From contig NZ_AP024898.1 in the NCBI RefSeq assembly GCF_024529975.1, positions 62,001-126,000 on the forward strand: 64,000 nt of DNA, in the 5' to 3' direction. The stretch is from Vibrio quintilis (GTDB lineage: Bacteria > Pseudomonadota > Gammaproteobacteria > Enterobacterales > Vibrionaceae). Below are positions 29,509 to 60,785 of this stretch, piece by piece (position 1 is the stretch's first letter; each line of letters begins with the position of its first letter). Both the position numbers and the translations under genes were made by a program. Under the pieces are notes generated by a model. It made no database searches. It had not been told where the DNA came from and saw nothing but the letters and a program-made list of their open reading frames with translations.

Positions 29509-29540
29509 AAAAGCCGGTTTCATGTGAAATCGGCTTTTTT
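29509..29540 (+). terminator. Rho-independent terminator or attenuator inside the siderophore operon
   Basis: AAAAGCCGGTTTCA and TGAAATCGGCTTTT form a 14-base stem with one G-T pair and a very tight loop, followed by TT. It sits between viuB and the NRPS, so it should reduce transcription of the NRPS relative to vibB-viuB. Confidence 0.85.
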
Positions 29541-29574
29541 CGGCGAAAGAGTAAACAGGGACAGGCAAATCAGC

Positions 29575-44054: not shown

Positions 44055-44684
44055 ATTCAATCCCTTGCTTAAAGACGCATTTTGATAAGAACACGCCCTG
44101 GGATCTGTTCATTCTTTTATTCAAAGCAGGATTGCAGATCCCCGATTTATGGTAATAGATGTTGTGGTGTTGAATGCATATTCTATAACAGTTGACTTAT
44201 AAATTGATATGACAGAGTTCTTTGTTTCGGATTTCAAAGAAATTTCGTGAATGATGAGTTACTTAACTTGATCATCGATGTTGTGTGTCTGAGTTCAAAT
44301 GATCGAAAATACCAGCTATTGAACATATTGTGAATTAAGTTTCTTATGTTAAAGTTGTATATTCAAAAAAATAATTTCACCATATTAATGAATTGAATCC
44401 GACCACCAGGGTATAGAGAGTATTCTACTCAAATTATCCATGGCACAGATCAAAATTATTGCATGATATATTATTTATAACCAATTTAAAATGTGATGTT
44501 CATTCATTGAAAGGTGTTTTTGTATGAAGTTTCACAAAACATTGGCATGGTCACAGAAAAAGAAATAATTACTAACTTTCCAAAGTTCGATCCGTAGAAT
44601 GTGCGCCGGTCGTAATTGATTGCATACTCATTTCGTGTGTATGAGCCATGTTGTGTTTATATGTCGGTCTTGTGTGAGGGACTT
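44055..44684. other. 630-bp divergent upstream region of the EPS operon
   Basis: This long AT-rich region lies between the chemoreceptor and the first EPS gene and should hold the EPS promoter. I found no convincing sigma-54 site or regulator box by eye, and no gene. A long leader is common for such operons. Confidence 0.5.
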
Positions 44685-46097
44685 ATGATATTCAGGCAAA
44701 CACTCAGATTCGTCGATGATGATTACTCATTGGTGACTAAAGCTTTTGATTTTATTATCATTAACCTGCTGCTGGCAGGCTTGATTCATAGTATGGGGGA
44801 GCATGAAACGCTGACAGATATTTCTGCCGGAATTTTACTCAGTTCATTATTTATTCTGGCAGGAGAACTGACCCGGTTATATTCGCAGCGTTTTAAGCGA
44901 CAGTTAAAGAAATCTTGTTGGTGTTTTTTTCTGACGGCTTTTATTTCTTATGCCGTTATTGCGGTGATGATTTGGATTTCAGATGATTTTGGCAAGATGA
45001 GTCAGTCTGACAGCCATCAGCATCATTTAAACTTTCAGGTGTACCATCTGTGGTTCTTTTCTGCACTGATTTTAATGTTGACTGCCCGTCTTGGCGGGTT
45101 GTTTCTCGGCCGGGCATTTAAAGCCAGAAAGCGGGTTGCGATTGTTGGCCTGACGAAGGCCGGTATTGCAACAAAGAACGCGTTACTTGAAGAATTTGGT
45201 GCACAGGAAATTGATATCAAATTCTATGATGAGCGTGAGTCTCTGAGCGGCTTACGGAGCAACTTTTATGGCGGCTCACTGACGGAACTGGTTGCAAAGG
45301 CAAAAGAAGAGCAGATCGATCATGTGTACATCGCTTTGCCGATGATCGCCAGAGACAGAATCAAATACTGTCTGGATCAATTGTCAGATACGATGGTTGA
45401 CACATCCATGGTGCCGGATCTGGAGAGTTATCATCTGGCCGTTTCCCGGGTGAATACTGTCCGGAATGTGCAGATTTTCAGTGTATTTTCAACGCCCTTC
45501 AATGGTTTTAAAGCACTGGTGAAGCGTCTGGAAGATCTGTTTATTGCGAGCCTGATTATTTTGATGATTTTACCGGTACTGATTGTCATTGCTGTTGGTG
45601 TCAAACTGAGTTCTCCCGGCCCGGTTTTGTTTAAGCAGGATCGTTATGGTCTGGGTGGTAAGAAAATCAAGGTGTGGAAGTTTCGTTCAATGCGGGTGAT
45701 GGAGAATGAAAGCCATGTCCGGCAGGCGACCAAACATGATCCGCGGGTGACAAAATTCGGCGCTTTTATCCGGCGGACTTCTCTGGATGAATTACCTCAG
45801 TTTATTAATGTACTTCAGGGATCGATGTCGATTGTCGGCCCCCGGCCACATGCAGTGGCACATAATGAACAGTACCGGGTCATCATCGAGAACTACATGA
45901 TTCGCCATAAAGTGAAACCCGGCATCACCGGATGGGCTCAGGTGAATGGTTATCGCGGGGAGACGGAAACCGTCGACAAAATGGAAAAGCGTGTGCAGTA
46001 CGATATTCAGTACATGCAGAACTGGTCACTATGGTTTGATTTGAAAATCATCTTCAAGACAGTCTTTGTCGGGTTTGTCAGTGAAGCGGCTTACTGA
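44685..46097 (+). CDS. Undecaprenyl-phosphate sugar transferase starting EPS synthesis (WcaJ/CpsA-like)
   Basis: The protein has four or five N-terminal membrane helices. A nucleotide-binding-like middle (RVAIVGLTKAGIATKNALL) and a fifth helix precede the bacterial sugar transferase domain with KVWKFRSM, RTSLDELPQF and the SIVGPRPHAV motif. It should move a sugar-1-phosphate (probably glucose or galactose) from UDP-sugar to undecaprenyl phosphate as the first step. It is the first gene of the operon; the ATG at 44685 follows GAGGGA. Gene content resembles the Vibrio cpsA-J type cluster, so this would be the cpsA position (from memory). Confidence 0.92.
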   Translation: MIFRQTLRFVDDDYSLVTKAFDFIIINLLLAGLIHSMGEHETLTDISAGILLSSLFILAGELTRLYSQRFKRQLKKSCWCFFLTAFISYAVIAVMIWISDDFGKMSQSDSHQHHLNFQVYHLWFFSALILMLTARLGGLFLGRAFKARKRVAIVGLTKAGIATKNALLEEFGAQEIDIKFYDERESLSGLRSNFYGGSLTELVAKAKEEQIDHVYIALPMIARDRIKYCLDQLSDTMVDTSMVPDLESYHLAVSRVNTVRNVQIFSVFSTPFNGFKALVKRLEDLFIASLIILMILPVLIVIAVGVKLSSPGPVLFKQDRYGLGGKKIKVWKFRSMRVMENESHVRQATKHDPRVTKFGAFIRRTSLDELPQFINVLQGSMSIVGPRPHAVAHNEQYRVIIENYMIRHKVKPGITGWAQVNGYRGETETVDKMEKRVQYDIQYMQNWSLWFDLKIIFKTVFVGFVSEAAY

Positions 46098-47367
46098 CTT
46101 TACCGGATTAATCATGATGATTTCCTGTTCTGCCTCTGCGGCGCTGACCCCAAAATTACACACATTGCCTGGCGGGATGGATGTCCGGAGCCGGCTCGAT
46201 GTCAGGTATGGTGAGAATACTAATGTGACCCGCCAGAACGGCCGTGCCGCGAGCAGGGCAGCGCGGCGCTCCGGCTTTTGGGCTGTTCAGCCCGGATTTG
46301 AAATTTCCGGGCAACATGCACAGGGGGTTTATCATCTGAAGTATGCTGGTCAGTACCGGCATTTTCAGCACAGCCCGGCAGATGATTATGCGGATCATCT
46401 TTATACCTTCAGCGGGAAATGGCTGCCTGAATCGCACCATGCATTGCAGTGGGAATTCAGCAGGATGAGTGGCCATGAGGCCAGGGGGCAGGGTGTCACT
46501 GAGGGGCTCAGCGATGAGCAGTTTCAACGCTATGGGATTGATCAAACACTGAAAACATCATTACATGATGCGGAACTGGCTTATGACTATGGATTACCGG
46601 AAGGCACATACGGGCTCAGGGCTTCAGTGAACCGGAAAACATTTTCGTTTCCACAGACCGGACATATTGAAAGTAATTTCCGGACCTATGTGCATGATCA
46701 GGCATGGAAAGAGCGCGCCTTTGCGGTCGCTCTGACGCAGCGGTTTTCATCAGACCATCAAATCCGCTACGGTTTGATGTCAACGAAGCGACACTATCAT
46801 ACGAACGGTATCAAAAACTTTGATAAGTATTTCCTCCGGGTTGGCTTCCAGACGCAATATTCGGCAATCACCCGGTTTCAGGGGAATTTTTCCTGGCTGC
46901 ATCAGGTGTTTCCGGATAATGCTCAGGCGAAAAGTTTTGAAGGACCAGACTGGGATTTGAGTGCACAGTGGCAACCACTCAGGCACTCATTGTGGGTGTT
47001 ACGTGGCTGGCAAAAAGTCACTGACCCGACGGAAAACGGCGGATATATCCTCGATTCCGGTGTCGGTGTTTCCTGGCAGCATCACTGGTGGACTGACCGC
47101 TTTTCAACCCGGTTCAAATGGTCCTATCAATCAAAGAGTTATCATATGTCCAGCCATGACCGTCATGATGATCTGCGATCGGCGGAAGTGGTGATTGGTT
47201 ATGATTTCCGGCCATCGGTTCGTTTTGAACTGAGTTATCAGCAACGTAAAAAGACTTCAAATCAGTTGCGGGACATATTTTTTATTGGTTCCGAACGCGA
47301 AGCCGTAGTCCGGATGCCTGGTTACGACCAGCATCAGATGCAGCTGACAATCAAGGTACAAATTTAA
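46081..47367 (+). CDS. EPS-cluster outer membrane beta-barrel protein
   Basis: A GTG at 46081 begins a plausible signal peptide (KRLTDFTGLIMMISCSASA, cleavage near ALT). It overlaps the end of the preceding gene by 17 bases. A barrel of alternating polar and aromatic strands with R/Y-rich short repeats follows, ending in a C-terminal aromatic/hydrophobic strand (HQMQLTIKVQI). This is the pattern of the OMP_b-brl_2 proteins found in polysaccharide clusters. It probably assists export through the outer membrane. A TTG at 46066 is another possible start. Confidence 0.8.
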   Translation: MKRLTDFTGLIMMISCSASAALTPKLHTLPGGMDVRSRLDVRYGENTNVTRQNGRAASRAARRSGFWAVQPGFEISGQHAQGVYHLKYAGQYRHFQHSPADDYADHLYTFSGKWLPESHHALQWEFSRMSGHEARGQGVTEGLSDEQFQRYGIDQTLKTSLHDAELAYDYGLPEGTYGLRASVNRKTFSFPQTGHIESNFRTYVHDQAWKERAFAVALTQRFSSDHQIRYGLMSTKRHYHTNGIKNFDKYFLRVGFQTQYSAITRFQGNFSWLHQVFPDNAQAKSFEGPDWDLSAQWQPLRHSLWVLRGWQKVTDPTENGGYILDSGVGVSWQHHWWTDRFSTRFKWSYQSKSYHMSSHDRHDDLRSAEVVIGYDFRPSVRFELSYQQRKKTSNQLRDIFFIGSEREAVVRMPGYDQHQMQLTIKVQI

Positions 47368-47927
47368 TGAGAGTATTGGTGTTATCTATCCTGAGTTTGT
47401 GGTTGTTGGCGGCCTCTTTGGCGACAAGTGCAGCGTGTACAGACACAACCGGCCGGTCAGACAGGGAAAGTACGGCGCCCTATCATCTTGGTCCCGGTGA
47501 CCAAATCCGGATTATGGTTTATGGGGAACCCGGTTTATCAATGACATTCATGGTCAACCAGCGGGGTTCCGTGAACTATCCATTTATCGGCCAGGTTCAG
47601 CTGGCGGGGAAAAGCCTGTCTGAGATTGAGGCGACGATAGCGCGGCGCCTGAAAGGTGATTATCTGCGTGAACCGATGGTAAGCGTTACCATGGAACACT
47701 TTCGCCGGTTTTATATTACCGGCGAAATTGAAGCACCAAACGGTTATGAGTATCTGCCGGGTTTAACTATAGAACAGGCGATTGCGCTGGCCGGAGGCCT
47801 GACTGACCGGGCTGATGACGACGATATTCAGATTCGTCATTCTGGCCGGGAACTGCAAAAAGATGTGCCTGTGACCTGTCCGGTTCATCCGGGCGATACC
47901 ATTATCATCGGCAAGAGCTTTTTCTGA
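47367..47927 (+). CDS. Wza-like polysaccharide export protein
   Basis: A signal peptide ends near SAAC; the Cys could be lipidated, but the lipobox is only partial. The Poly_export domain (YHLGPGDQIRIMVYGEPGLS, VNYPFIGQVQLAGKS) is followed by a SLBB-type domain (YITGEIEAPNGYEYLPGLTI, EQAIALAGG). At 186 residues it is short compared with Wza, and it lacks the long C-terminal helix, as is common in this type of cluster. It would form the periplasmic part of the export channel. Start and preceding stop overlap by one base. Confidence 0.92.
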   Translation: MRVLVLSILSLWLLAASLATSAACTDTTGRSDRESTAPYHLGPGDQIRIMVYGEPGLSMTFMVNQRGSVNYPFIGQVQLAGKSLSEIEATIARRLKGDYLREPMVSVTMEHFRRFYITGEIEAPNGYEYLPGLTIEQAIALAGGLTDRADDDDIQIRHSGRELQKDVPVTCPVHPGDTIIIGKSFF

Positions 47928-47928
47928 C

Positions 47929-50073
47929 ATGGCCGTTTCTCTGATTGAACAAAGTGCGGGTGTTGAGAGCCGGATTGATTTTGCGCCATTTCTGCGTGCG
48001 TTCCGGAAACATGTGTTGAAGATCGGATTAATTACACTGGTCCTGACCGGCATTCCGTTACCATTTATCGCTAAAATGACGACCAAATATCTGGCGACGG
48101 CCACAGTGCTGATTAAAGCCCAGGCTGATAACGCTGTGCCGGTTGATCAGGTTGATAATTTTGATTCGACCCGGGCACCGTATTACGAGACACAATATAA
48201 CCTGATGCAATCCAGGGTTGTGCTGGAACGAGCGGTGAAAGACATGCATCTGGATGATAATCCACGTTTTAACGGCGCGGATCACAATGATAAGGCCCGG
48301 TTAAAGTTAGCTGAACAGACAACTTTAACTGAACAGGCGCGGATTAATCATGCTGTTCAAACATTAAGCCGTGGCCTGACGTTTACGATAGTTCGTCAGA
48401 CACAGCTGATTTATATCTCGTACAAATCGACCTCGGCTGCTGAATCCGCCCGGATTGCTAACGGGGTGGCAAAGGCATTTATCCACTATTCGGTTGATCA
48501 GAAAATCCATAAGACAGCGCAGGCACAGGCGTGGAATACGCAGCAGATGCAGAAGCTGAAAAAACAACTGAGTGACAGGAAACAGCAAATGGCTCAGTTT
48601 CTTGATGAAAAAGACTTGCTGATGTTTCACGGCATTGATGGTTTTGAAACTGAAAAAATGGAAATCACCAACAGTAAACTTGCGGATGCCAAAGAACGCA
48701 GGCTGGCAGCGCAGGCAGCTTATGAAACCATGCTGAATACAGATCGCTCTTCTGCGGATACGTTTGCGTCATTACCTGAAATTGCTGATCATGCCCAGTT
48801 AAAGGACTTACGGATCGCGCTGACTCAGGCCCGGAGAAAGCTATATGAATTGCAACGGCTTTATGGTCCGAAGCATCAAAAAGTACTGGCAGCCGGCGCA
48901 GAAATAAAGGCAATTGAGGCACAATCAGAGGTGCTGTTTGCGGAGCTGAAAGAAAGAATTACGAAAAAATATCAGGAAGCGCGGATTAAAGAGCAACGGT
49001 ATCAGGTTTTATTGCACGAACAGACCCGTCAGGTGAAGGCTTTGGTAGCAAAGCGGGATCAGTACAATGAGCTGTTGACTGAGATAGAAAAAACGGAAGA
49101 TTTATATAAGTCCTTACTGAAACGCAGCAAAGAGCAGAGGCTGGCTGCACAATACCGGGAGCCAAATGCGATTCTTTATGATCCGGCGATGATTCCGGAC
49201 AAGCCACAAAAACAGAATAAGAAGCTGTTGATTGTCATGACTTTCCTGCTGGCGCTGGTGCTGAATGTGCTGGTGATTGTGGTGATGACAGCAATGAATC
49301 GCCGGATTGCCGGGATGCATCAGTTGAGAGCCCGGCTTGGTCTGGTGGCTGTCGGGGATATTCCGCTGTTTAACACACCGGATAACTGGGTGGATGCCGT
49401 CAGTCGTCATCCGCAGGCCGCAGAAATTATTCACGGGATTCAGACCGCGATTGATTTTTGTCAGAAAGATATCAAAGTGATGGGCGTTGCGTCCTGTTTT
49501 CCACAGGAAGGTGCGTCTTCCTTCTTTCGTCTGATGGCGCGTTCTGTTGCCAGAAAAAAGCGAACGTTAATGTTGGACCTTGATTACCGGCATCCGGATT
49601 CTCTGACAGAGGCGGGAACGCAGGCCGAAAATTCCGGGGGATTTACGGCGTTTGTTGCCGGAGCTGCTTTAAGTTCTGTGGTGTCCTCCGTCGATAACAA
49701 CCTGGATATATTAACCCGTGGAGAGCTGACGGAATCGCCGCTGATATTTTTTGATACATCCGCTTTTACCGGGGCGCTTGAATCTCTGAACCGGAGCTAT
49801 GAACAATTGGTGATTAACATGCCCGTGATTGAGCAAAGTAAAGACAGCCAGCTTCTGATGCGGGAACTGGATGCGTTGGTGATTGTGGTGAAAGCCAACC
49901 AGTATGCAGCTCCTGACCTGAAAAAAGTGCTGGCCAAATTACCGCTCCGAGAAGGCCAGACCGTTGTTGGCGTTGTGAACCAGGTCAAAGATGATGATTT
50001 GCAAAGTGAAGAGAGCCGTCAGTTTATGGCCAGCAGTACAATTGTTGATTTAGAAAAAACGGAGCAGAGATGA
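47929..50073 (+). CDS. Wzc-like chain-length protein with degenerate tyrosine kinase domain
   Basis: A Wzz-type domain (membrane helices near residues 30-50 and 433-453, long periplasmic coiled coil between) is followed by a BY-kinase-like domain. The P-loop reads CFPQEGASSFF, so the GKS/T lysine (position 529) is Ala. The Walker A' Asp pair is kept in MLDLDYRHP, but the Walker B position is Asn630 (VINMP). The usual C-terminal tyrosine cluster is absent (ending DLEKTEQR). It therefore probably controls chain length and assembly without autophosphorylation. The gene begins 2 bases after the Wza-like gene and overlaps the flippase by 4 bases. Confidence 0.88.
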   Translation: MAVSLIEQSAGVESRIDFAPFLRAFRKHVLKIGLITLVLTGIPLPFIAKMTTKYLATATVLIKAQADNAVPVDQVDNFDSTRAPYYETQYNLMQSRVVLERAVKDMHLDDNPRFNGADHNDKARLKLAEQTTLTEQARINHAVQTLSRGLTFTIVRQTQLIYISYKSTSAAESARIANGVAKAFIHYSVDQKIHKTAQAQAWNTQQMQKLKKQLSDRKQQMAQFLDEKDLLMFHGIDGFETEKMEITNSKLADAKERRLAAQAAYETMLNTDRSSADTFASLPEIADHAQLKDLRIALTQARRKLYELQRLYGPKHQKVLAAGAEIKAIEAQSEVLFAELKERITKKYQEARIKEQRYQVLLHEQTRQVKALVAKRDQYNELLTEIEKTEDLYKSLLKRSKEQRLAAQYREPNAILYDPAMIPDKPQKQNKKLLIVMTFLLALVLNVLVIVVMTAMNRRIAGMHQLRARLGLVAVGDIPLFNTPDNWVDAVSRHPQAAEIIHGIQTAIDFCQKDIKVMGVASCFPQEGASSFFRLMARSVARKKRTLMLDLDYRHPDSLTEAGTQAENSGGFTAFVAGAALSSVVSSVDNNLDILTRGELTESPLIFFDTSAFTGALESLNRSYEQLVINMPVIEQSKDSQLLMRELDALVIVVKANQYAAPDLKKVLAKLPLREGQTVVGVVNQVKDDDLQSEESRQFMASSTIVDLEKTEQR

Positions 50074-51296
50074 GTCTGATTAAAAGTATTCTGACCATTG
50101 CCAGCTCATCGCTGATGTCCCAGATCATTGGTGCTCTGTCAATCTGGCTGATTTCTCATTGGTATGGCATGGCTGATGTCGGTATTTATGCCCTGACATA
50201 CAGTATCGTGATCATTGGAGCCCAGCTTTGTACGTTGGCTTCTCATCTGTTATTACCCGGGCAAAAAGCATCATTACTCGGGCAGAATATTGTTTTCTGC
50301 CTGTTACAGACCAGCCTGTTATCTTTGGTTTATGCCGGGGTGGCCTCGGTTATTTTTGAACGGTCATTTGGGGTGATTTACATCCTGAATGTTGCGCATG
50401 CCTGGATACTGATTTCTGAAAACTTATTACTGCGGGCGGAAAAAATGCGTCATCTCGCTTTTCAGCGTCTGTCTGTTTCTGTGCTGGTTTTTACTGCGGT
50501 TTTCGTCACCGGTTCGGCAATGAGTATCTATCCGGTCTGGGCGGGTGGATTAATTATCCTGATTGCTTTCTGGCTGAGTTTTTCGATTGATCCGGCTGAC
50601 CTGAAACAGGCGGATTGGGGATGGAAAGCAAACTGGCGTTTTGTTTGTGAGAATAAAATACACCTCAGTCATGTCGGCATGGCTGAAGTGTTGGCTATCG
50701 CGAATACGAATTTACCCACAATTCTGATTAACTTCTGGTTTTCAGCAGTCACTGCGGGTTATTTTGCGGTTGTCAGCCGGTTTTGCCTGTCGCCGGTGAT
50801 CATTGCCGGGAATGCAGTCCGGAACTCTGTCTTTTCACGCTGGTCGGCAGATTTTCGTCGTCATTACTTCAATTTTGATGAGTTTGTGAAAGTCCGCCGG
50901 TTGCTGTTGGCAATGGCGATTGTTGCAACAACGGGAATCCTGATTTTCTATCCGTTACTGGTTCAGCTGGCATGGTTTCAGCCCTGGGCGGATTCAGTGC
51001 CGACTTCCCGTTACATGCTGCCATACCTGTTTCCTGCGCTGGCGGTGTGTCCTTTAACCATGCTTGAACTGGTGTTTGGTTCGAAGCGATATTTCATGCG
51101 GATTCAGATCGAACAGATATTCGTTGTGATGGCGGCATTTATCGTGTTGCCGGTTTTTTATCAAAGCTATGCCGCCTCTGTGTTTACGTATGCCTTACTT
51201 TCGGCGCTTCGGTATGCCTTTATTTATGTCCGGGTCAATCAACGGGCAACCAGCCTCAGACAAACCGGCGGAGCGGTGTGTGATGGCGCTGAATAA
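50070..51296 (+). CDS. Polysaccharide flippase (Wzx-like)
   Basis: The 408-residue protein has about 12 membrane helices and few charged residues. The opening SILTIASSSLMSQIIGALSIWLISHWYG matches the polysaccharide translocase (MATE/PST-like MOP) superfamily. By position it moves the lipid-linked repeat unit across the inner membrane. It overlaps both neighbours, the second by 14 bases. Exact specificity cannot be read. Confidence 0.85.
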   Translation: MSLIKSILTIASSSLMSQIIGALSIWLISHWYGMADVGIYALTYSIVIIGAQLCTLASHLLLPGQKASLLGQNIVFCLLQTSLLSLVYAGVASVIFERSFGVIYILNVAHAWILISENLLLRAEKMRHLAFQRLSVSVLVFTAVFVTGSAMSIYPVWAGGLIILIAFWLSFSIDPADLKQADWGWKANWRFVCENKIHLSHVGMAEVLAIANTNLPTILINFWFSAVTAGYFAVVSRFCLSPVIIAGNAVRNSVFSRWSADFRRHYFNFDEFVKVRRLLLAMAIVATTGILIFYPLLVQLAWFQPWADSVPTSRYMLPYLFPALAVCPLTMLELVFGSKRYFMRIQIEQIFVVMAAFIVLPVFYQSYAASVFTYALLSALRYAFIYVRVNQRATSLRQTGGAVCDGAE

Positions 51297-52692
51297 TGGC
51301 TTATTCTTTCAGCTATACAGCTTAATTACATTGGTGTTTTGTGGCGTCGTCCAGTACTTCACCGGCATCGGTGCTGTGCTGTGGCTGCCGTTTATGCTGG
51401 CATTTGTGATGGCAGGGCTGTTACTGATGCAAACCCGGTATGCTGATTTTTCTCTCGATACGCAGGAAGTGATCGTGCTGACGCTGTTCATCGGTTTTTT
51501 TGCGATGGCCGTGTTGTCTACCTTTTTACAAAATGGCGCAATGATCACGATTGTCGGACTGAAAAATGAACTGGCATTGAGTCTGGTGATGGGGTGTTTA
51601 CTGCTTGGCTTCTGTGGCTGCTCTCAGCTTTACCGGATTATCCGCCTGATGCACTGGGTTTTTTATGTGCAGTTTCCGGTCGTTTTGTTTCAGGTACTGG
51701 TGATTGTCCCGAAACGTGTTGCTTTCAAAGGAGAATTTGAAAAGTGGGATTCCGTTGTCGGGACATTTGGCGGTGATCCGATGGGCGGGGGAAATACGGC
51801 GGCAATGGGATTATTCTGCTTATTTATCATGCTGATCAAATTCTCCGAATATAAACATGGTGTTGCCTCCCGGCTGCAAACCGGATTACACATTGGTGGC
51901 GCGTTTATCCTCTGTGTTTTGGGGGAAATAAAGTTTGTGATTCTGCTGTCTCCTTTACTGATGGTGTTTATCTGGTTTGCGCCCGCTTATATGACCGGCA
52001 TGAAACGCTATGACTGGAAAATCATTCTGATGATTCTGGGAGGAATGGCCGGTTTGCTGATGCTGGCTGTATTCGTCCTCGGGGCTTCTTATGCCTCAGC
52101 ATTTGGTGCCAATCCAAATAAAAGCGCGCTGGATCTGTTTATCAGTTCCCTTGATTATGTGTTTGACCCTGATTACATCATGCCATCCGGAGAACTGGGC
52201 CGGATGACCACCTTTTTTTTCTGGGCCGGACACAGTGATTTATATGGCTGGCCCAGTCAGTGGTTTGGATATGGTCTGAATGCCACCAATCATGGCAGTG
52301 CTGTTGCTCCGGGCTTTTTGAATCTCATCTTTAATGTCCTGCTGGATTCAACCTCACTGAGTATGATGTTGTGGGAACTCGGGCTGGCAGGCACACTTTT
52401 TTTCATCATTTTGGTGTTTTATTCCATCCGGGTGACGATGCCCCGGCCGGTTTTTGAGCCAGCGCAGCTTACCTGGCAGGACAGGCGCCTGCTTTCATGG
52501 CAACCTGCGTTGATTGCTTTTGCGATCGCAGGGCTGCTGAGTCTGCCATACAGCCAGATTCTGATGTTAACACCAATGCTGCAGTTTCTTTTCTATTTTG
52601 CCCTTGGGGCAATGTTCATCATTCGTAAATCTGTATTAACCGTGAGTGCTTCTTGTTATGAGTCAAAAGCCTTTTATCAGTGTCATCATTAA
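51283..52692 (+). CDS. Wzy-like polysaccharide polymerase
   Basis: The protein (about 469 residues) has 10-12 membrane helices with a large periplasmic loop between later helices (roughly residues 300-350, including DPDYIMPSGELGRMTTFFFW). This is the layout of O-antigen/EPS polymerases, whose sequences are very variable. The ATG at 51283 overlaps the flippase; earlier starts in the frame are improbable. Function is assigned from topology and place in the operon. Confidence 0.75.
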   Translation: MALNNGLFFQLYSLITLVFCGVVQYFTGIGAVLWLPFMLAFVMAGLLLMQTRYADFSLDTQEVIVLTLFIGFFAMAVLSTFLQNGAMITIVGLKNELALSLVMGCLLLGFCGCSQLYRIIRLMHWVFYVQFPVVLFQVLVIVPKRVAFKGEFEKWDSVVGTFGGDPMGGGNTAAMGLFCLFIMLIKFSEYKHGVASRLQTGLHIGGAFILCVLGEIKFVILLSPLLMVFIWFAPAYMTGMKRYDWKIILMILGGMAGLLMLAVFVLGASYASAFGANPNKSALDLFISSLDYVFDPDYIMPSGELGRMTTFFFWAGHSDLYGWPSQWFGYGLNATNHGSAVAPGFLNLIFNVLLDSTSLSMMLWELGLAGTLFFIILVFYSIRVTMPRPVFEPAQLTWQDRRLLSWQPALIAFAIAGLLSLPYSQILMLTPMLQFLFYFALGAMFIIRKSVLTVSASCYESKAFYQCHH

Positions 52693-53659
52693 AACCTATA
52701 ACGAACAGTCAGGCATAGCCGGCACGATAAACAGTATCCGGGAACAACTGGATTTCCTGCGTATGCAATATGAAGTGATTGTTGCCGATAGTTTGTCGGA
52801 TGACAGGACGAGAGAGATTGCACTGTGCCATCAGGCGAAAGTTGTGACCTTAAAAGAGGGGACCGACCGGTGTTGTGGTGTCGGGCATCAGCTCGGTTAT
52901 TTGTATGCGCAGGGTGAGTTTTTATTACTGATGGATGGCGATATGGAACTTCGGGCGGGTTTTATTGAGCGGGGTCTCCGCTTTTTATTGCAGAATCCGG
53001 ATTATGCGGGTGTGGCCGGTACGGTGACAATGGATGAAGCCGTGAGCTACGAATTTCAGTCCCGGCAGCAGAGATTACATAAAATCTATCCACTCGGAGA
53101 TTGCAGCCACCTGGGTGGGGGCGGTTTATATCGCCGTTCCGCGATTGAACACATTGGTTATCTGACTCATTCAGGGCTGCATGCTTATGAAGAAGCAGAG
53201 CTGGGGATGCGTTTGAAACACGCGGGATATCGTCTGCGGCGTCTGGATACGCCTTATTTTTTTCATCAGTCATACGATATGCCGACGCTGGCTCTGCTGC
53301 GCCATCGCTGGCGGGGTGGTTATACATTTGCTTCGGGTGAGTTGCTGAAAAGTGCGTGGAAAAAACCGTATTTTACGGATGCTGTACTGGCAGTGAAAAA
53401 TGAAGCGATTTTCAGTTTATATTTATTCGGGCTGTGTGTGTTACTTCTGAGCGTAAATCCGCTGATGATTGGTTGCGGATTGCTCCCTCTGGTGGCTTTC
53501 TTTTTGATGAAAGCACTGAAAAACCGTTCAGTAAAAGCGGCGGTATTAAGTGTGATTAACCTGACGGTTTTCTCCGCAGGTTTTATTCGCGGGTTATTTT
53601 CAACGCTGAAATCTCCGCAGATCATGCCGGTGCATGAAGTGCTGGAGGCCGCAGCATGA
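52658..53659 (+). CDS. Family 2 glycosyltransferase
   Basis: The GT-A fold is visible: FISVIIKTYNEQSGIAGTINSI at the start, the nucleotide-sugar D in VIVADSLSDDRT, and a DxD-type LLMDGDMEL. The C-terminal part carries two hydrophobic segments (IFSLYLFGLCVLLLSVNPLM and nearby) that anchor it to the membrane. It should add one sugar of the EPS repeat unit. Its start overlaps the polymerase by 35 bases, and its stop overlaps the next gene by 4 bases. Confidence 0.92.
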   Translation: MSQKPFISVIIKTYNEQSGIAGTINSIREQLDFLRMQYEVIVADSLSDDRTREIALCHQAKVVTLKEGTDRCCGVGHQLGYLYAQGEFLLLMDGDMELRAGFIERGLRFLLQNPDYAGVAGTVTMDEAVSYEFQSRQQRLHKIYPLGDCSHLGGGGLYRRSAIEHIGYLTHSGLHAYEEAELGMRLKHAGYRLRRLDTPYFFHQSYDMPTLALLRHRWRGGYTFASGELLKSAWKKPYFTDAVLAVKNEAIFSLYLFGLCVLLLSVNPLMIGCGLLPLVAFFLMKALKNRSVKAAVLSVINLTVFSAGFIRGLFSTLKSPQIMPVHEVLEAAA

Positions 53660-54870
53660 AAGTTTTGATGGTAAACAAATTCTTTTTTATGAAGGGGGGG
53701 GCCGAAACCGTATTTTTTCAGGAAAGAGAGATGGCGGCCACCGCCGGGATTCAGGTGCTTGATTTTTCAATGCATCATCAGAGTAATCTTGAATCCCGCT
53801 TTAGCGATTTTTTTGTCCGGAATGTTGATTATTACGGTCGTCACGGTCTGATGTCGAAAGTCAAAACAGCAATTCGCTTTATTCATAATCGGGAAGCCTG
53901 TCAGAAGCTGGCAGCATTGCTCCGGGCGGAGCAGCCGGATATTGTGCATTTTCATAATATTTATCACCAGCTGACACCTTCCGTAATCAAAGTGGCGAAA
54001 GCCCATGGCTGTAAAACCGTGCTGACAGTTCATGATACAAAGATTGCCTGTCCGGCTTATACCATGTACCGCAATGGTCATACCTGTGAAGACTGCCTGC
54101 AGAAGAGTGTCTGGCATGCGGTGAAAAACCGGTGTCAGCATGGTTCTATGTTTAAGAGTCTTCTGCTGTCACTTGAAGCTGCGTTTCAGGGATTGGCCGG
54201 TAACTACCGGGCGCTGGATATGATTATTTCTCCCAGCGTGTTTCTGGCCGGGATTATCCGCCGGAAATTGCCGGATAACCGGATTGAGGTGATTGTGAAT
54301 GGGATTGATGAATCAGTCGGTGTCAACCGTTCTCAAAATGGCGGCTATTTTCTTTATTTTGGCCGCCTCAGCCAGGAAAAAGGAGTTGAAACGTTAGCAC
54401 AGGCCTATCAGTCATCCCTGCGCCAGCTGCCATTAAAAATAGTCGGACATGGCCCGCTATTCGCCGGACTGTCTGAACGATATACCAATATTGAATTACC
54501 CGGATTTCAAACGGGAGAGGCACTCGAATCTTTGATCCGCAATGCAACTGCGGTGATTGTGCCTTCGGAGTGTTATGAAAATTGTTCTATGGCAGTGCTG
54601 GAAGCGATGGCATACGGAAAGCCGGTGATTGGTGCCCGGATTGGGGGAATTCCCGAGCAGGTCCGGGATGGTGTTGAAGGTCGTTTATTTCCGGCCGGGG
54701 ATGTCGCTTCTTTGGCACAGGTCATGAACGAGCTCGCGGCAGCACCTGATTTGGTTGATGAATATGGCCGCAATGCCCGGCTCAGGCTGGAGGAAAAATA
54801 TTCATTGACCCGCCACAGGCTGGCATTGCTTGATTTGTATCAGTCTTTAACGGGAGAGCAAACATGTTAA
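53656..54870 (+). CDS. Family 4 glycosyltransferase
   Basis: The GT-B fold is shown by the start VLMVNKFFFMKGGAETVFFQ (glycine loop), the HFHNIYHQLTPS region, the C-terminal YFGRLSQEKGVETLAQA and the E-x7-E motif in VPSECYENCSMAVLEAMAYG. A CxxxxxxxxxxCxxC-like Cys cluster (IACPAYTMYRNGHTCEDCLQ) occurs in many related transferases. It should add a sugar to the growing lipid-linked unit. It overlaps the next gene by 7 bases. Confidence 0.92.
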   Translation: MKVLMVNKFFFMKGGAETVFFQEREMAATAGIQVLDFSMHHQSNLESRFSDFFVRNVDYYGRHGLMSKVKTAIRFIHNREACQKLAALLRAEQPDIVHFHNIYHQLTPSVIKVAKAHGCKTVLTVHDTKIACPAYTMYRNGHTCEDCLQKSVWHAVKNRCQHGSMFKSLLLSLEAAFQGLAGNYRALDMIISPSVFLAGIIRRKLPDNRIEVIVNGIDESVGVNRSQNGGYFLYFGRLSQEKGVETLAQAYQSSLRQLPLKIVGHGPLFAGLSERYTNIELPGFQTGEALESLIRNATAVIVPSECYENCSMAVLEAMAYGKPVIGARIGGIPEQVRDGVEGRLFPAGDVASLAQVMNELAAAPDLVDEYGRNARLRLEEKYSLTRHRLALLDLYQSLTGEQTC

Positions 54871-55967
54871 AAGTGACTGTTCTGGGAACCCGGGGTATTC
54901 CCGGTGTTCTGGGGGGGGTGGAAACCCATTGTCAGAATTTATATCCTGAGATTGTCCGGCAGTCAGGCACTGCGGTTACGGTGATCGCCCGTTCACCCTA
55001 TGTGGATTATCAAATATCAGAGTTTCAGGGTGTTCATTTGCGAACGGTTTCCGCGCCAAAGAAAAAATCGCTGGAAGCGATTATTCACTCGGTATTTGCT
55101 GCTATCACGACCCTGACCGATGGTTCGGATATTGTTCACGTTCATGCTATTGGTCCGGGACTGGTTGTACCGCTGCTACGTCTGGCTGGTAAGAAAGTGG
55201 TCTTTACCCATCATGGTCCTGACTATGATCGGCAGAAGTGGGGCCGGATGGCAAAAATGGTTTTGAAACTGGGGGAGAAACTGGCAGTAAAATTTGCCAG
55301 TGAAGTGATAGTGATTTCTGATGTCATCAATCAGCTCATTCAGGGGAAATATGGCAGAGATAATGCCTATCTCATACCTAATGGGGTTCATTTGCCACAG
55401 GCACTCAACAAAGCGACCTGTGATTCCGTTCTTGCACAGTTTGGTTTAACACCACAAGGGTATATTGTTGCGGTCGGCAGGTTTGTTGAGGAAAAAGGAT
55501 TCCATGATTTAATTCAGGCGTATCAGCTTGCCGGTATATCAAAGCCTCTGGTTTTGGTGGGTGATGCGGACCATCCGACGCCATACAGTGAATCATTAAA
55601 GCAAAAAGCCAAAGACACGCAGGGGGTTGTGCTGACCGGATTTCTGAAAGGTGATGCGCTGCAGGCTGTATTTTCACAGGCTGGATTATATGTGATGCCG
55701 TCTTATCATGAAGGGTTACCGATTGCGCTGCTGGAAGCGATGTCATTTTCATTACCGGCTGTTGTCAGCGATATTCCGGCAAACCTTGAAGTTGCACTGG
55801 AAAGTGATGTTTATTTCCCTGTATCGGATGTGGCTTCTCTGGCAGAGAAACTGAGACTGAAGCAGCACGAAACCCGTTGCAGCTATCATACATATCTGGA
55901 GAAGTATGACTGGGCAGCTATTGCCGCCCAAACAATGGCTGTTTATAACAAAATTGCAGGAAATTGA
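54864..55967 (+). CDS. Family 4 glycosyltransferase
   Basis: The start VLGTRGIPGVLGGVETHCQNL is typical for GT4 enzymes of the WcaC/rhamnosyl type. The C-terminal half has AVGRFVEEKGFHDLIQA, then MPSYHEGLPIALLEAMSF with the E-x7-E pair. It is the last glycosyltransferase of the operon. Sugar specificity cannot be read from the motifs. Confidence 0.92.
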   Translation: MLKVTVLGTRGIPGVLGGVETHCQNLYPEIVRQSGTAVTVIARSPYVDYQISEFQGVHLRTVSAPKKKSLEAIIHSVFAAITTLTDGSDIVHVHAIGPGLVVPLLRLAGKKVVFTHHGPDYDRQKWGRMAKMVLKLGEKLAVKFASEVIVISDVINQLIQGKYGRDNAYLIPNGVHLPQALNKATCDSVLAQFGLTPQGYIVAVGRFVEEKGFHDLIQAYQLAGISKPLVLVGDADHPTPYSESLKQKAKDTQGVVLTGFLKGDALQAVFSQAGLYVMPSYHEGLPIALLEAMSFSLPAVVSDIPANLEVALESDVYFPVSDVASLAEKLRLKQHETRCSYHTYLEKYDWAAIAAQTMAVYNKIAGN

Positions 55968-55970
55968 AGA

Positions 55971-56372
55971 TTGACAGAAAGTAAAAGTAAGGTAGCGGAC
56001 AGATTCTGGCAGATCCTGAATCCGGAAGTGGCTGCTGATCTGGATGAAGAACAACGTGCAGAGATTGAACGTACCGTTGATATTATGTGTTTATCAGGGC
56101 GCCATTCTGTTGATGTGCGTAAAACAGTTCCCTGGATAGGCAAGCGTTATTATTTAGTTTTTCTTGCAGGCAGAGATCGTCGGCAACATGTTCGGGGAGA
56201 TAAGCTGAAGCTGACTGATATTTTGCTGGCAGTTTTTATCGCTATGGTTATTTTGACAACAATCGGACTGGCGCTGCTAGCCTTATATTTAATCAAGTCG
56301 GCTTTGGGTATCGATGTGTTTAAGAATTTTTCTTTTGGTATTTGGGACTGGTTCCAGGGGCTGTACCACTAG
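55971..56372 (+). CDS. Small membrane protein at the end of the EPS operon
   Basis: A TTG start at 55971 is three bases after the GT4 stop. The 133-residue protein has a cytosolic helical N-half (AADLDEEQRAEIERTVDIM, then KTVPWIGKRYYLVFLAGRDRRQ) and one long membrane segment (ILLAVFIAMVILTTIGLALLALYLI). A short tail follows. Small proteins of this kind are found at the end of Vibrio EPS clusters and are often misnamed 3-phosphoshikimate carboxyvinyltransferase; I see no such enzyme domain. Its function is unknown. Confidence 0.8.
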   Translation: MTESKSKVADRFWQILNPEVAADLDEEQRAEIERTVDIMCLSGRHSVDVRKTVPWIGKRYYLVFLAGRDRRQHVRGDKLKLTDILLAVFIAMVILTTIGLALLALYLIKSALGIDVFKNFSFGIWDWFQGLYH

Positions 56373-56404
56373 TTGCAAAATGATATTTTATTTGCGTTTT
56401 GCAA
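56373..56404 (+). promoter_or_regulatory. Two LuxO-type boxes upstream of qrr
   Basis: TTGCGTTTTGCAA (56392-56404) fits the LuxO-P box TTGCATTTTGCAA with one mismatch. TTGCAAAATGATA (56373-56385) is a second, weaker box in which one half is changed. They lie about 110-140 bases upstream of the qrr start, the usual distance for an activator of sigma-54 promoters. Confidence 0.75.
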
Positions 56405-56488
56405 TTCTATTATGAACAACTACGCAATGAGATAATTAGAATTTAAAATAAATCCATTTATATCAATGATTTATTTTTTATTTAAAAG

Positions 56489-56506
56489 TTGGCACACTAA
56501 ATGCTT
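56489..56506 (+). promoter_or_regulatory. Sigma-54 promoter of qrr
   Basis: TTGGCACACTAAATGCTT has the invariant GG and GC pairs at the required spacing (GG at 56491-56492, GC at 56503-56504). This puts transcription start near 56516, exactly where the Qrr sequence begins. Confidence 0.88.
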
Positions 56507-56515
56507 CATATAAAC

Positions 56516-56621
56516 TGACCCTTTTAAGCCGAGGGTCACCTAGCCAACTGACGTTGTTAGTGAATTTATTTATTCACACTTATTTCAGCCAGTCACAATT
56601 TTGTGTCTGGCTTTTTTTTTT
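56516..56621 (+). ncRNA. qrr: Qrr quorum-regulatory small RNA
   Basis: About 106 bases. The 5' hairpin is TGACCC...GGGTCA, followed by the highly conserved Qrr core CACCTAGCCAACTGACGTTG and TTAGTGAA, a middle stem (GTGAATTTATTTATTCAC), and a terminator AGCCAG...CTGGCT followed by nine or ten T. Order, size and core match Vibrio Qrr1-5. Qrr RNAs bind Hfq, are activated by LuxO-P with sigma-54 at low cell density, and control luxR-type and other mRNAs by base pairing. luxO is not adjacent, so this is not the luxO-linked copy (qrr1). It starts 144 bases after the last EPS gene. Confidence 0.95.
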
Positions 56622-56690
56622 GCCTGACATCCGACCTTTAATTAACAGATAAAAGCAGGACAAAATATCTCTCAGTCCTGGTTGCTGCCT

Positions 56691-57380
56691 TTACCGGTAT
56701 GTTTTTTTTGTCATCGCGATTACATACCCCAGAATTTTTGTTGTTCCGGCAGCACTGTCATTCAGTGCCTGCTTTTCGTGGTTCAGGAGAGAATGGCCGG
56801 ATACTTTGCGGAGATATTGAATATAAATTTTTCCGTTGATATCAATCAGAAAACGTCCTGAGCCGATATTGAGCATTTCACGATTGATCAGGTAAACGTA
56901 ATCTTGTGTTTCGATTTCGACCGCATCAATCATCCGGGAAGTGTTATATTTTGTCTGTGATTTCTGCTGTGGCTGTTCAGAACCGGCATTGCTGACCGGG
57001 CAGGCACGGGGAAAGCTGTGGAGCACTGCTGCCCATTGTGTATGTTGTGCTTCTGAAAGTAAAATTTCGTAGTTATTTTCTGTATCCCGCACAATCGGCA
57101 TTGCAGGTCGTTTACACTGTAGGGAAGGATGTATTTCTGTTGCAGGTATATGCTGAGGCAGCGCGAGCTCTTTGACCGGAATATGCATTGCCAGATGAAC
57201 TCTTGCAATGACTTCATAAGGTGTTCTTTGGTTCCGGTTCCAGGTGCTGAAGGTTGATTTCGGGATATCAAGCAGCCGGGAAAGCTCCTGATAGTTTTTA
57301 CGCCGGGTTAATTTTTTCAGGTTTTTTGTAAAATCAGTGCCTTTAAGATAATCGTATGTTTTAACCTTTTCATATGACAT
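56691..57380 (-). CDS. Phage CI-like HTH regulator 1
   Basis: The N-terminal 75 residues are a CI-repressor-type HTH (YQELSRLLDIPKSTFSTWNRNQRTPYEVIARVHL). A variable linker follows. The C-terminal part (DAVEIETQDYVYLINREMLNIGSGRFLIDINGKIYIQYLRKVSGH) has an S24-like beta arrangement with no visible Ala-Gly cleavage site or Ser/Lys pair. The gene at 58948-59577 has the same organisation. It lies beside qrr, convergent with it, and upstream of galE on the opposite strand. It is not surrounded by phage genes, so it is probably a chromosomal regulator of the polysaccharide locus (inference). Confidence 0.75.
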   Translation of the reverse strand: MSYEKVKTYDYLKGTDFTKNLKKLTRRKNYQELSRLLDIPKSTFSTWNRNQRTPYEVIARVHLAMHIPVKELALPQHIPATEIHPSLQCKRPAMPIVRDTENNYEILLSEAQHTQWAAVLHSFPRACPVSNAGSEQPQQKSQTKYNTSRMIDAVEIETQDYVYLINREMLNIGSGRFLIDINGKIYIQYLRKVSGHSLLNHEKQALNDSAAGTTKILGYVIAMTKKTYR

Positions 57381-57819: not shown

Positions 57820-58836
57820 ATGGAAATACTTGTTACGGGTGGATTAGGGTATATCGGCAGTCATACGTGTGTTCAGTTAATTGAGGCCGGGATAACGCCG
57901 GTGATTGTCGATAATTTGTGCAATTCAAGTCTTGAAGTATTAAAGCGGATTGAACAGTTAACCGGGGTTCAGGTTCGGTTCTGTCAGGGTGATATTCGCG
58001 ATGAAACTTTTCTTGATTCTGTTTTCAGCGACCACAACATTAAGTCAGTGATTCATTTTGCCGGTTTAAAAGCTGTCGGAGAGTCTGTTGAGCAACCGCT
58101 GGCGTATTATGATAACAATGTGAACGGTTCTCTGGTTTTAGCCCGCTGTATGCATAAAGCGAAGGTTAAAAGTTTAATTTTCAGTTCATCTGCGACCGTT
58201 TATGGTGATCCGGCAAGTGTTCCGTTAACAGAAGATGCGCCAGCCGGAGCCACAACCAATCCTTATGGCCGGAGTAAGTATATGGTTGAACAATGCCTGT
58301 CTGATTTATTGATTGCAGATCCGGCATGGAGTATTACTTTACTGCGTTATTTTAATCCTGTCGGTGCGCATCCGTCTGGCACAATGGGGGAAGATCCGCA
58401 GGGCATTCCGAATAATCTGATGCCTTTTATTGCTCAGGTTGCGGTTGGTCGTCGTGATAAATTATCTGTATTTGGTGGTGATTATCCAACTCCGGATGGC
58501 ACCGGAGTTCGCGATTATATTCATGTGATGGATTTAGCTGACGGTCATATTGCGGCTCTGAAAGCGGTTGGTGAGCAGTCCGGATTGCATATTTACAATC
58601 TGGGAACCGGGCAGGGGTCGAGTGTTTTGGATATGGTCGCAGCGTTCAGCAAAGCATGTGGTCATTCTATTGCTTATGAGATCTGCCCGCGCCGGTCAGG
58701 AGATGTTGCTGAATGTTGGGCAGGCACAGATAAAGCTGAGAAAGAGTTAGGCTGGAAGGCCAGCCGGACGATTGAAGATATGACATCAGATACGTGGCGC
58801 TGGCAATCACAGAATCCGGATGGCTACCAGTCCTAG
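57820..58836 (+). CDS. galE: UDP-glucose 4-epimerase
   Basis: The 338-residue protein has the NAD-binding GGLGYIGSH near the N-terminus, SSSATVYG with the catalytic Ser/Thr, and the active-site YGRSKYMVEQ (Y-x3-K). Its length and the GVRDYIHVMDLADGH segment match GalE. It interconverts UDP-glucose and UDP-galactose, supplying a precursor for the EPS operon upstream. The ATG follows GAGGTG, and a terminator follows the stop. Confidence 0.95.
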   Translation: MEILVTGGLGYIGSHTCVQLIEAGITPVIVDNLCNSSLEVLKRIEQLTGVQVRFCQGDIRDETFLDSVFSDHNIKSVIHFAGLKAVGESVEQPLAYYDNNVNGSLVLARCMHKAKVKSLIFSSSATVYGDPASVPLTEDAPAGATTNPYGRSKYMVEQCLSDLLIADPAWSITLLRYFNPVGAHPSGTMGEDPQGIPNNLMPFIAQVAVGRRDKLSVFGGDYPTPDGTGVRDYIHVMDLADGHIAALKAVGEQSGLHIYNLGTGQGSSVLDMVAAFSKACGHSIAYEICPRRSGDVAECWAGTDKAEKELGWKASRTIEDMTSDTWRWQSQNPDGYQS

Positions 58837-58947: not shown

Positions 58948-59577
58948 TTAATCACCTTTTGCGATTGTCAGCATTACTTTTCCGTTAACTTGAACATCGT
59001 CTTCGTTGACTGTCAGCATCGTTTCATTAAATGCAATGGCAAGCTGTTTTCCCGGTAATCGTTGCATCTGACAAAATGATTGCAGGCCATCTAATTCAAT
59101 CAGATAGGTTCCATTGGTCGCGTTGGTTGCTTCCTGATCGATAATATATGTTTTGTCACCTTCCCGTACAGCAATGACGTTGGATATATTGAGTTCATCC
59201 AAAAACAACTGATCAAGAGTCAGTGTGTTGTAAGGGTGTACTTTGCCATTTTTTAGCAGGAATAAATCGATGTTTGCCAGTGGTCTGGTTTTGGGTTGCT
59301 GAGACTCATGCTGATATGGCGTCATATTCGGATAAGGGTCACCTTCATCAAGCAACAGCCACTTAATAGACACACCTTTACTCAAATGCGTCCGGATAAC
59401 AACCTCGTAGGGGCAAACTTTTCTTTGATGCCAGGTGGCGATTGTTGATGCTGGTACATTGAGCAGTTCGGCCAGTGCCTTAGTATTTTTCAGATTAAAC
59501 AGAGTTCGAAGTTTTTCTGTGACTTGCTTACCAGCCAGATACTCAAAATTTGGTAATGAAACTTGTTTTTTATTCAT
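58948..59577 (-). CDS. Phage CI-like HTH regulator 2
   Basis: The N-terminal HTH (KALAELLNVPASTIATWHQRKVCPYEVVIRTHLS) is like that of the gene at 56691. The C-terminal domain (YIIDQEATNATNGTYLIELDGL, then QVNGKVMLTIAKGD) is again an S24-like beta fold without a visible catalytic pair. The shared words in the HTH (TIATW/TFSTW, PYEVV/PYEVI) show that the two proteins are paralogues. galE lies between them. Its target is unknown. Confidence 0.75.
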   Translation of the reverse strand: MNKKQVSLPNFEYLAGKQVTEKLRTLFNLKNTKALAELLNVPASTIATWHQRKVCPYEVVIRTHLSKGVSIKWLLLDEGDPYPNMTPYQHESQQPKTRPLANIDLFLLKNGKVHPYNTLTLDQLFLDELNISNVIAVREGDKTYIIDQEATNATNGTYLIELDGLQSFCQMQRLPGKQLAIAFNETMLTVNEDDVQVNGKVMLTIAKGD

Positions 59578-60181: not shown

Positions 60182-60785
60182 CCACCGCCTTGGGCGGTGG
60201 TGATTGAACCTTGGGGCTATTGCCCGAAGAAATGCCCATGTTAGAAGTAAACCTCTTATTCACCACAAGTAAGAGGAAACAAAAAACATGGGCGACTATA
60301 GAAGTTCATCACATGTCTATTGGCGTTGTAAATACCATATAGTTTGGACGCCGAAATACAGATTCAAGATCCTGAAAGGTAACGTAGGTAAGGAGCTTTA
60401 TCGCTCAATCTATATTTTATGCAATATGAAAGATTGCGAGGTCTTGGAACTAAATGTTCAGCAAGATCATGTTCATCTGGTTGTGATAGTTCCACCAAAA
60501 GTGTCTATCTCAACGTTGATGGGGATGTTGAAAGGACGTTCGGCAATCCGGTTGTTTAACAAATTCCCGCATATAAGAAAGAAGCTCTGGGGAAATCATT
60601 TTTGGGCAAGAGGTTACTTTGTCGATACGGTTGGCGTAAATGAAGAAATCATCAGACGTTACGTCAGACACCAAGATAAGAAAGATCAAGAATACGAGGC
60701 GCAGTTAGAGTTGAAGATGAACTAACAGCGCGAGAATGCTCCCTTTCAGGGGGCTGTAAACCAAAGCCGCCTTCTAAGAAGGCGG
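60182..60785 (+). mobile_element. IS200-type element (IS200/IS605 family)
   Basis: The transposase gene is flanked by subterminal hairpins: CCACCGCC/GGCGGTGG at 60182-60200 and CCGCCTT/AAGGCGG at 60767-60785. There are no inverted terminal repeats, as expected for this family, and no tnpB. A further hairpin (CCTCTTA...TAAGAGG, 60252-60276) precedes the start codon and may limit translation, as in IS200. The exact cleavage sites outside the hairpins are not fixed. Confidence 0.85.
60288..60725 (+). CDS. tnpA: IS200-type Y1 HUH transposase TnpA
   Basis: The 145-residue protein has the HUH metal-binding pair in QDHVHLVV and the single catalytic tyrosine in EEIIRRYVRHQ. The WTPKYR and GNHFWARGYFVDTVG segments are typical. 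All key residues are present, so it should be able to cut and join single-stranded DNA at the element ends. The ATG follows AGAGGAAAC. Confidence 0.95.
   Translation: MGDYRSSSHVYWRCKYHIVWTPKYRFKILKGNVGKELYRSIYILCNMKDCEVLELNVQQDHVHLVVIVPPKVSISTLMGMLKGRSAIRLFNKFPHIRKKLWGNHFWARGYFVDTVGVNEEIIRRYVRHQDKKDQEYEAQLELKMN

Follow-up and report, generated by a model that had tools for sequence, protein, structure and literature searches.

The qrr unit behind the exopolysaccharide operon

The stretch of DNA analysed here, called the window below, comprises 64,000 bases (G000:C2:62001-126000, G000 being the organism's own Vibrio genome), and it carries a ten-gene exopolysaccharide (EPS) operon followed by a qrr unit, a CI-repressor-like gene, galE and a second CI-repressor-like gene (Table 1). 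The operon encodes a sugar-phosphate transferase, a beta-barrel protein, a Wza-like and a Wzc-like protein, three glycosyltransferases, a last protein of 133 amino acids and two proteins lacking a Pfam match, which presumably hold the Wzx and Wzy positions. The RF00378 Qrr is the sole Rfam match across all 64,000 bases (cmscan, gathering thresholds), and the covariance-model check that the sequence-only reading of this DNA had proposed for it recovers the family at full length. The model ends the RNA at 56620, giving 105 nt, where that reading had ended it at 56621 (106 nt); the two LuxO-type boxes, the sigma-54 promoter and the RNA with its core and terminator were all located, with coordinates agreeing within one base. 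The spacing holds as described, since the RNA starts 144 bases past the last base of the last EPS gene, and box 1 begins directly after the TAG stop codon of that gene (56370-56372).

Table 1. Features at the end of the EPS operon and around the qrr unit, in window coordinates
Feature	Position	Strand	Basis or remark
Ten-gene exopolysaccharide operon	44616..56372	+	ORFs, Pfam/NCBIfam
Last EPS gene, 133 aa	55971..56372	+	no Pfam/NCBIfam match
LuxO-type box 1, TTGCAAAATGATA	56373..56385	+	2 mismatches in 10
LuxO-type box 2, TTGCGTTTTGCAA	56392..56404	+	1 mismatch
Sigma-54 (-24/-12) promoter, TGGCAC-N5-ATGCT	56490..56505	+	1 mismatch; starts 26 bases before the Qrr RNA
Qrr sRNA	56516..56620	+	RF00378, 100.6 bits (gathering score 50), E 3.9e-18, full model 1-108
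Segment nt 24-51 of the Qrr, containing the conserved core	56539..56566	+	complementary to the 5′ region of the luxR/hapR homologue
Terminator of the Qrr (hairpin with T run)	56588..56620	+	no strong terminator found earlier behind the EPS operon
CI-repressor-like gene	56691..57380	-	PF07022; convergent with qrr
galE	57820..58836	+	TIGR01179, 462 bits (cut-off 262)
Second CI-repressor-like gene	58948..59577	-	PF07022, PF16452

The LuxO boxes were scored at ten positions against TTGCA-N3-TGCAA, the consensus as quoted in an excerpt of PMC3352281. By number neither motif rises above chance in the window, where shuffles led us to expect 3.16 sigma-54 motifs (3 found) and 5.18 LuxO boxes (3 found); the weight of both comes from their spacing, their position before the Qrr RNA and their recurrence in five sister units. 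None of the three sigma-54 matches in the window lies before the EPS operon. It had also been noted that luxO does not adjoin this qrr, and indeed the genome's 64 LuxO-like matches all fall outside the window interval; luxO is on contig C1 beside another qrr, in the gene order uvrB-qrr-luxO-Hpt, the first of these being a gene that we take to be uvrB-like.

Several other features of the region may be recorded here. The two CI-repressor-like genes flank galE, and in both G112 and G230 a qrr has related CI-like genes at a distance of about 7-9 kb. An IS200-like transposase gene (PF01797) is present at window 60288-60725, 3.7 kb from the EPS-side qrr, and another (PF01797, L042 8183-8641) is located 140 bases behind the qrr of L004. 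A 1550-aa ORF at window 29524-34176 resembles, by eye, a non-ribosomal peptide synthetase.

Qrr copies in the genome and the probable source of the EPS-side unit

Vibrio Qrr sRNAs (RF00378) number five in V. harveyi and four in V. cholerae. The EPS-side unit is like them in its RNA family, core, terminator, sigma-54 promoter and LuxO-type boxes, and the genome has both luxO (NF041946, 846 bits, cut-off 800) and a luxR/hapR homologue adjoining hpt (NF040929, 379.6 bits, cut-off 350); it is unlike them in sitting behind an EPS operon. Of the seven Qrr matches that the genome gives, six exceed the cut-off (101.8, 100.6, 95.7, 95.0, 82.6 and 80.8 bits) and the seventh scores 47.2 bits. The copy beside luxO is the one scoring 82.6 bits. 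Each of the six over-cut-off copies is preceded by a LuxO-type box (0-2 mismatches) and by a sigma-54 site (1-2 mismatches) that begins 26-31 bases ahead of the RNA. Each of their positions has a syntenic Qrr in G061, the genome of the sister species.

Across the genus, a Qrr is present in 214 of 227 genomes and the commonest count is 4, as obtained with stricter filters and with rows below the cut-off included. With the usual filters, among 20 chosen genomes, G111, G169, G172, G187 and G230 each have 8 over-cut-off copies and G112 has 7; three Qrr of G230 are found within about 4 kb. According to part of PMC8043402, one to five qrr per species are common, most often 4 or 5, in contrast to the six over-cut-off copies of G000; since the same paper has a histogram of Qrr counts, higher counts may already be in print. 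Our literature search found no paper on a 'qrr6'.

On C1 there is also a polysaccharide cluster that we take to be syp-like (L226 8271-16356; C1 ~426-434 kb), which by Pfam encodes a STAS protein and a LuxO-like sigma-54 activator, the latter 52% identical to LuxO (residues 23-405). In V. fischeri, as stated in a portion of PMC10162802, qrr1 responds to either of two activators, LuxO and the polysaccharide activator SypG; its promoter is of the same type as that of the EPS-side qrr, and it is the single qrr of that species, located beside luxO.

The origin of the EPS-side unit was approached by BLASTN, comparing window 55900-57200 with 32 other qrr units, each taken with flanks of 600-700 bases. 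Second only to the G061 orthologue is the unit that G000 itself carries between a GGDEF and a DUF3612 gene (196 bits, 79%, window 56373-56619), the identity extending over the 257 aligned columns between box 1 and the T run. The two have different neighbours, and box 2 is perfect in the DUF3612-side unit, whereas it has one mismatch in the EPS-side unit. The next matches are the DUF3612-side unit of G061 (161 bits) and, in a shorter alignment, its nupC-side unit (159 bits). In a tree of whole units, the EPS-side and DUF3612-side units of both species group together as a clade of four (support 0.918), which is not recovered in the tree of the RNA part only. Because the EPS-side unit is most like the DUF3612-side qrr of the same genome, it is probably a duplicate of the latter that reached its place behind the EPS operon before the two sister species diverged, as far as can be judged from sequence comparison. 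A qrr between GGDEF and DUF3612 genes is found in G000 (L003/L041), G061, G165 and a V. parahaemolyticus record, and its presence in the latter two makes this site probably the older one. The match begins sharply at box 1; since the alignments to several further units likewise begin at 56373-56375, this edge need not be an insertion point, and may just be the start of conservation.

Could the EPS-side copy be a decayed or redundant duplicate, with no effect of its own? The five other over-cut-off copies, all with the same or nearly the same core, and the degenerate box 1 would agree with this. However, there is no obvious damage to the RNA, its promoter or its terminator, and G000 and G061 have the same first 63 RNA nt despite differing flanks; we consider a copy without effect unlikely.

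The place behind the operon, and Qrr on plasmids and phages

Homologues of the 133-aa EPS gene are present in 28 of the 227 genus genomes (29 matches), and both G061 and G012 have the full set of ten EPS proteins, at 64-91% and 38-66% identity, respectively. When the 29 loci were scanned for a 31-base Qrr core, allowing up to 6 mismatches within 1.5 kb on each side, a Qrr was detected near the last EPS gene in two of the 28 genomes, G000 and G061. The other 26 carry the last EPS gene without an adjacent Qrr, so that the Qrr is not a general component of the EPS locus, and the earlier suggestion of co-inheritance with that locus is not supported for the genus at large. Within the sister pair it stands, since G000 and G061 have the EPS-qrr-CI-galE block in common and thus inherited it together; the order in G061 is the same as in G000 as far as the genes after the second CI-like gene, which we take to be PTS genes. 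We also considered, and rejected, an EPS-linked qrr in G012, where a Qrr precedes the EPS operon by ~4.6 kb and adjoins two genes that we call codB/codA-like by assumption. The same two genes flank a Qrr in G165, where the one EPS-gene match is located on a different contig, and we therefore read the proximity in G012 as a coincidence.

What lies behind the 133-aa gene in most of these genomes is a DUF4832/GH42-like, glycosidase-like gene, which follows it directly on the same strand in 19 of the 28, including G012, the source of the query protein (48-88% identical to the other 18), and on the reversed strand in G066. The qrr of G000 and G061 occupies this place, and the DUF4832/GH42-like gene is absent from both genomes, behind the EPS operon and also elsewhere by a genome-wide search that had no positive control. 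In G165, which the 133-aa gene makes the nearest relative outside the sister pair (61%), the place is taken by another gene, of 311 aa, so the loss of the DUF4832 gene may predate the arrival of qrr.

No hairpin followed by a T run is found between the EPS stop codon and the Qrr in G000, and the first strong terminator is that of the Qrr itself, with its T run ~240 bases past the stop (-14.4 kcal/mol; -18.1 in G061). A simple consensus terminator scan listed none between 56281 and 56751, the Qrr terminator included. These observations, and the fact that qrr stands at a position which 19 of the 28 genomes fill with another same-strand gene, would be compatible with an EPS transcript that runs on to the Qrr terminator and either yields a processed 3′-end Qrr without LuxO or disturbs the sigma-54 promoter. 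In G061, however, the palindromic boxes can fold into a hairpin of A/T pairs only (-10.4) with T's behind it, which might terminate weakly, and transcription may also end before qrr in a Rho-dependent manner. Such read-through seems to us quite improbable.

In addition to the chromosomal copies, the V. vulnificus plasmid pFORC54 (L131) and a V. navarrensis conjugative plasmid (L134) each carry a complete qrr unit that includes a LuxO box and a sigma-54 promoter; in both, umuD and a Y-family polymerase gene follow closely downstream. Qrr-like RNAs are found on phages as well. A 23-base core pattern matched four IMG/VR viral contigs (L126-L129), with RNAs of 74.5, 73.8, 64.6 and 62.2 bits, the first two nearly identical to each other and likewise the last two; a second core pattern added one contig (L218, 46.6 bits), and a stricter one had no match among the viral contigs. 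Vibrio phage K303 (L130) has a Qrr-like RNA of 46.6 bits, in a stretch that is present in 82 Vibrio phage records, most of them near-identical to one another; a V. alginolyticus plasmid with phage genes, p1 (L133), has one of 47.3 bits, and Aliivibrio phage H905 (L219) one of 43.0 bits. The gene after the RNA is a holin gene in K303 (by annotation) and in L127 and L219 (by PHROGs), a hypothetical one in p1, and a member of a family of unknown function in L128 and L129.

The seventh match of G000 is of this kind, since it lies in a prophage region (L045 7938-8018, minus strand; C2:696337-696417), where it adjoins a Rha/KilAC anti-repressor gene. It has neither LuxO nor sigma-54 signals (3 and 5 mismatches, respectively), and had no match in the phage collection. 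The nine phage-type copies checked, four of which pass the Rfam cut-off, have no sigma-54 site (5-6 mismatches) and no good LuxO box (2-4). In our literature search on Qrr with prophage, phage or holin, none of the paper titles listed dealt with a phage-encoded Qrr, and qrr mobility is apparently under-described. One could imagine that portable qrr cassettes spread through chromosomes, plasmids and phages and that one of them replaced the last gene of the EPS operon, whose transcription would then yield Qrr independently of LuxO. We consider this combination quite improbable; if it were true, surface-sugar production would be wired into the low-density quorum state.

Predicted targets and the likely role of the EPS-side Qrr

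Since pairing with local mRNAs had been proposed for this Qrr, its nt 24-51 or nt 8-51 were scanned in 30-base windows against 263 translation-start regions of the own genome. These comprise 260 ORFs of at least 110 aa from the window and 18 other own-genome stretches, together with luxR, aphA and luxO; ORF starts are those of the longest ORF, ORFs too near a stretch end were dropped, and the starts of luxR, aphA and luxO were chosen. The 30-base windows replaced unrestricted duplexes (Qrr nt 1-58 against 180-base regions), which gave long unrealistic helices and ranked luxR 4 of 263.

With nt 24-51, luxR ranks first of 263 at -25.2 kcal/mol, through the segment CTTAACAACG-TAATTGGC just before its start; with nt 8-51 it drops to 14. 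The ten EPS genes rank 13, 41, 58, 70, 87, 152, 180, 190, 221 and 238 with nt 24-51, the best being the last glycosyltransferase gene (-19.9 kcal/mol), and their best rank with nt 8-51 is 27. In the same two settings galE ranks 173 and 38, and the two CI-like genes rank 235 and 120 (nt 24-51) and 257 and 227 (nt 8-51). None of these local mRNAs stands out among the 263 regions, and the proposed pairing with them is not borne out. The known Qrr target aphA ranks 161 and 226 (nt 24-51 and nt 8-51), with the limit that our candidate, a gene with a PF10400 match and no NCBIfam equivalog over the cut-off, is a putative aphA. As luxO ranks 66 and 137 in these settings, neither the aphA nor the luxO link is recovered by simple duplex ranking among the 263 regions with either Qrr stretch. 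Judged from predicted duplexes, the canonical luxR target is supported, but a local EPS, galE or CI target is not.

That the RNA has been kept beside the operon as an EPS-linked regulator, by pairing with EPS, galE or CI-like mRNA or by other dedicated control, is very unlikely: the adjacency is common to two species whose EPS proteins are 64-91% identical, and the last glycosyltransferase gene and galE reach the 13th and 38th ranks given above, but a best rank of 13 among ten genes is near chance (~24 expected, probability near 0.4), galE falls to 173rd with nt 24-51, the CI-like genes stay between 120 and 257 in both settings, and 26 of 28 genomes lack a Qrr beside the last EPS gene.

Against the luxR leader of the own genome, the six host copies give -20.8 to -26.8 kcal/mol and the nine phage-type copies -15.6 to -26.8 kcal/mol. 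The phage Qrr-like RNAs, which have much of the luxR-pairing core, are candidate setters of the host quorum state; if functional, they would allow phages, without a LuxO switch, to push that state directly.

Taken together, the EPS-side gene is a genuine, ordinary-looking sixth qrr, and its adjacency to the EPS operon is real and looks like a lineage-specific feature rather than a functional link. We put at about 0.88 the probability that it is a complete qrr gene switched by phosphorylated LuxO and repressing luxR/hapR, which was copied from the DUF3612-side qrr in the common ancestor of G000 and G061 and landed behind the EPS operon. Phosphorylated LuxO would turn it on with RpoN at low cell density, and the RNA, presumably using Hfq, would pair with the luxR/hapR-type mRNA and repress it, acting additively with the other copies. 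The place beside the EPS genes would be a landing site, with no regulatory role implied. Caveats to this reading are that box 1 has two mismatches, the source of the duplication depends on one tree node (0.918), and the DUF3612-side and nupC-side units of G061 differ by 161 versus 159 bits.

The number and place of qrr genes appear to change fast, with six host copies here and seven or eight in six relatives, and it seems that a whole qrr unit, enhancer and promoter included, can occupy a new address. Why vibrios keep several near-identical Qrr thus becomes testable through comparison of sister species in which single copies differ.
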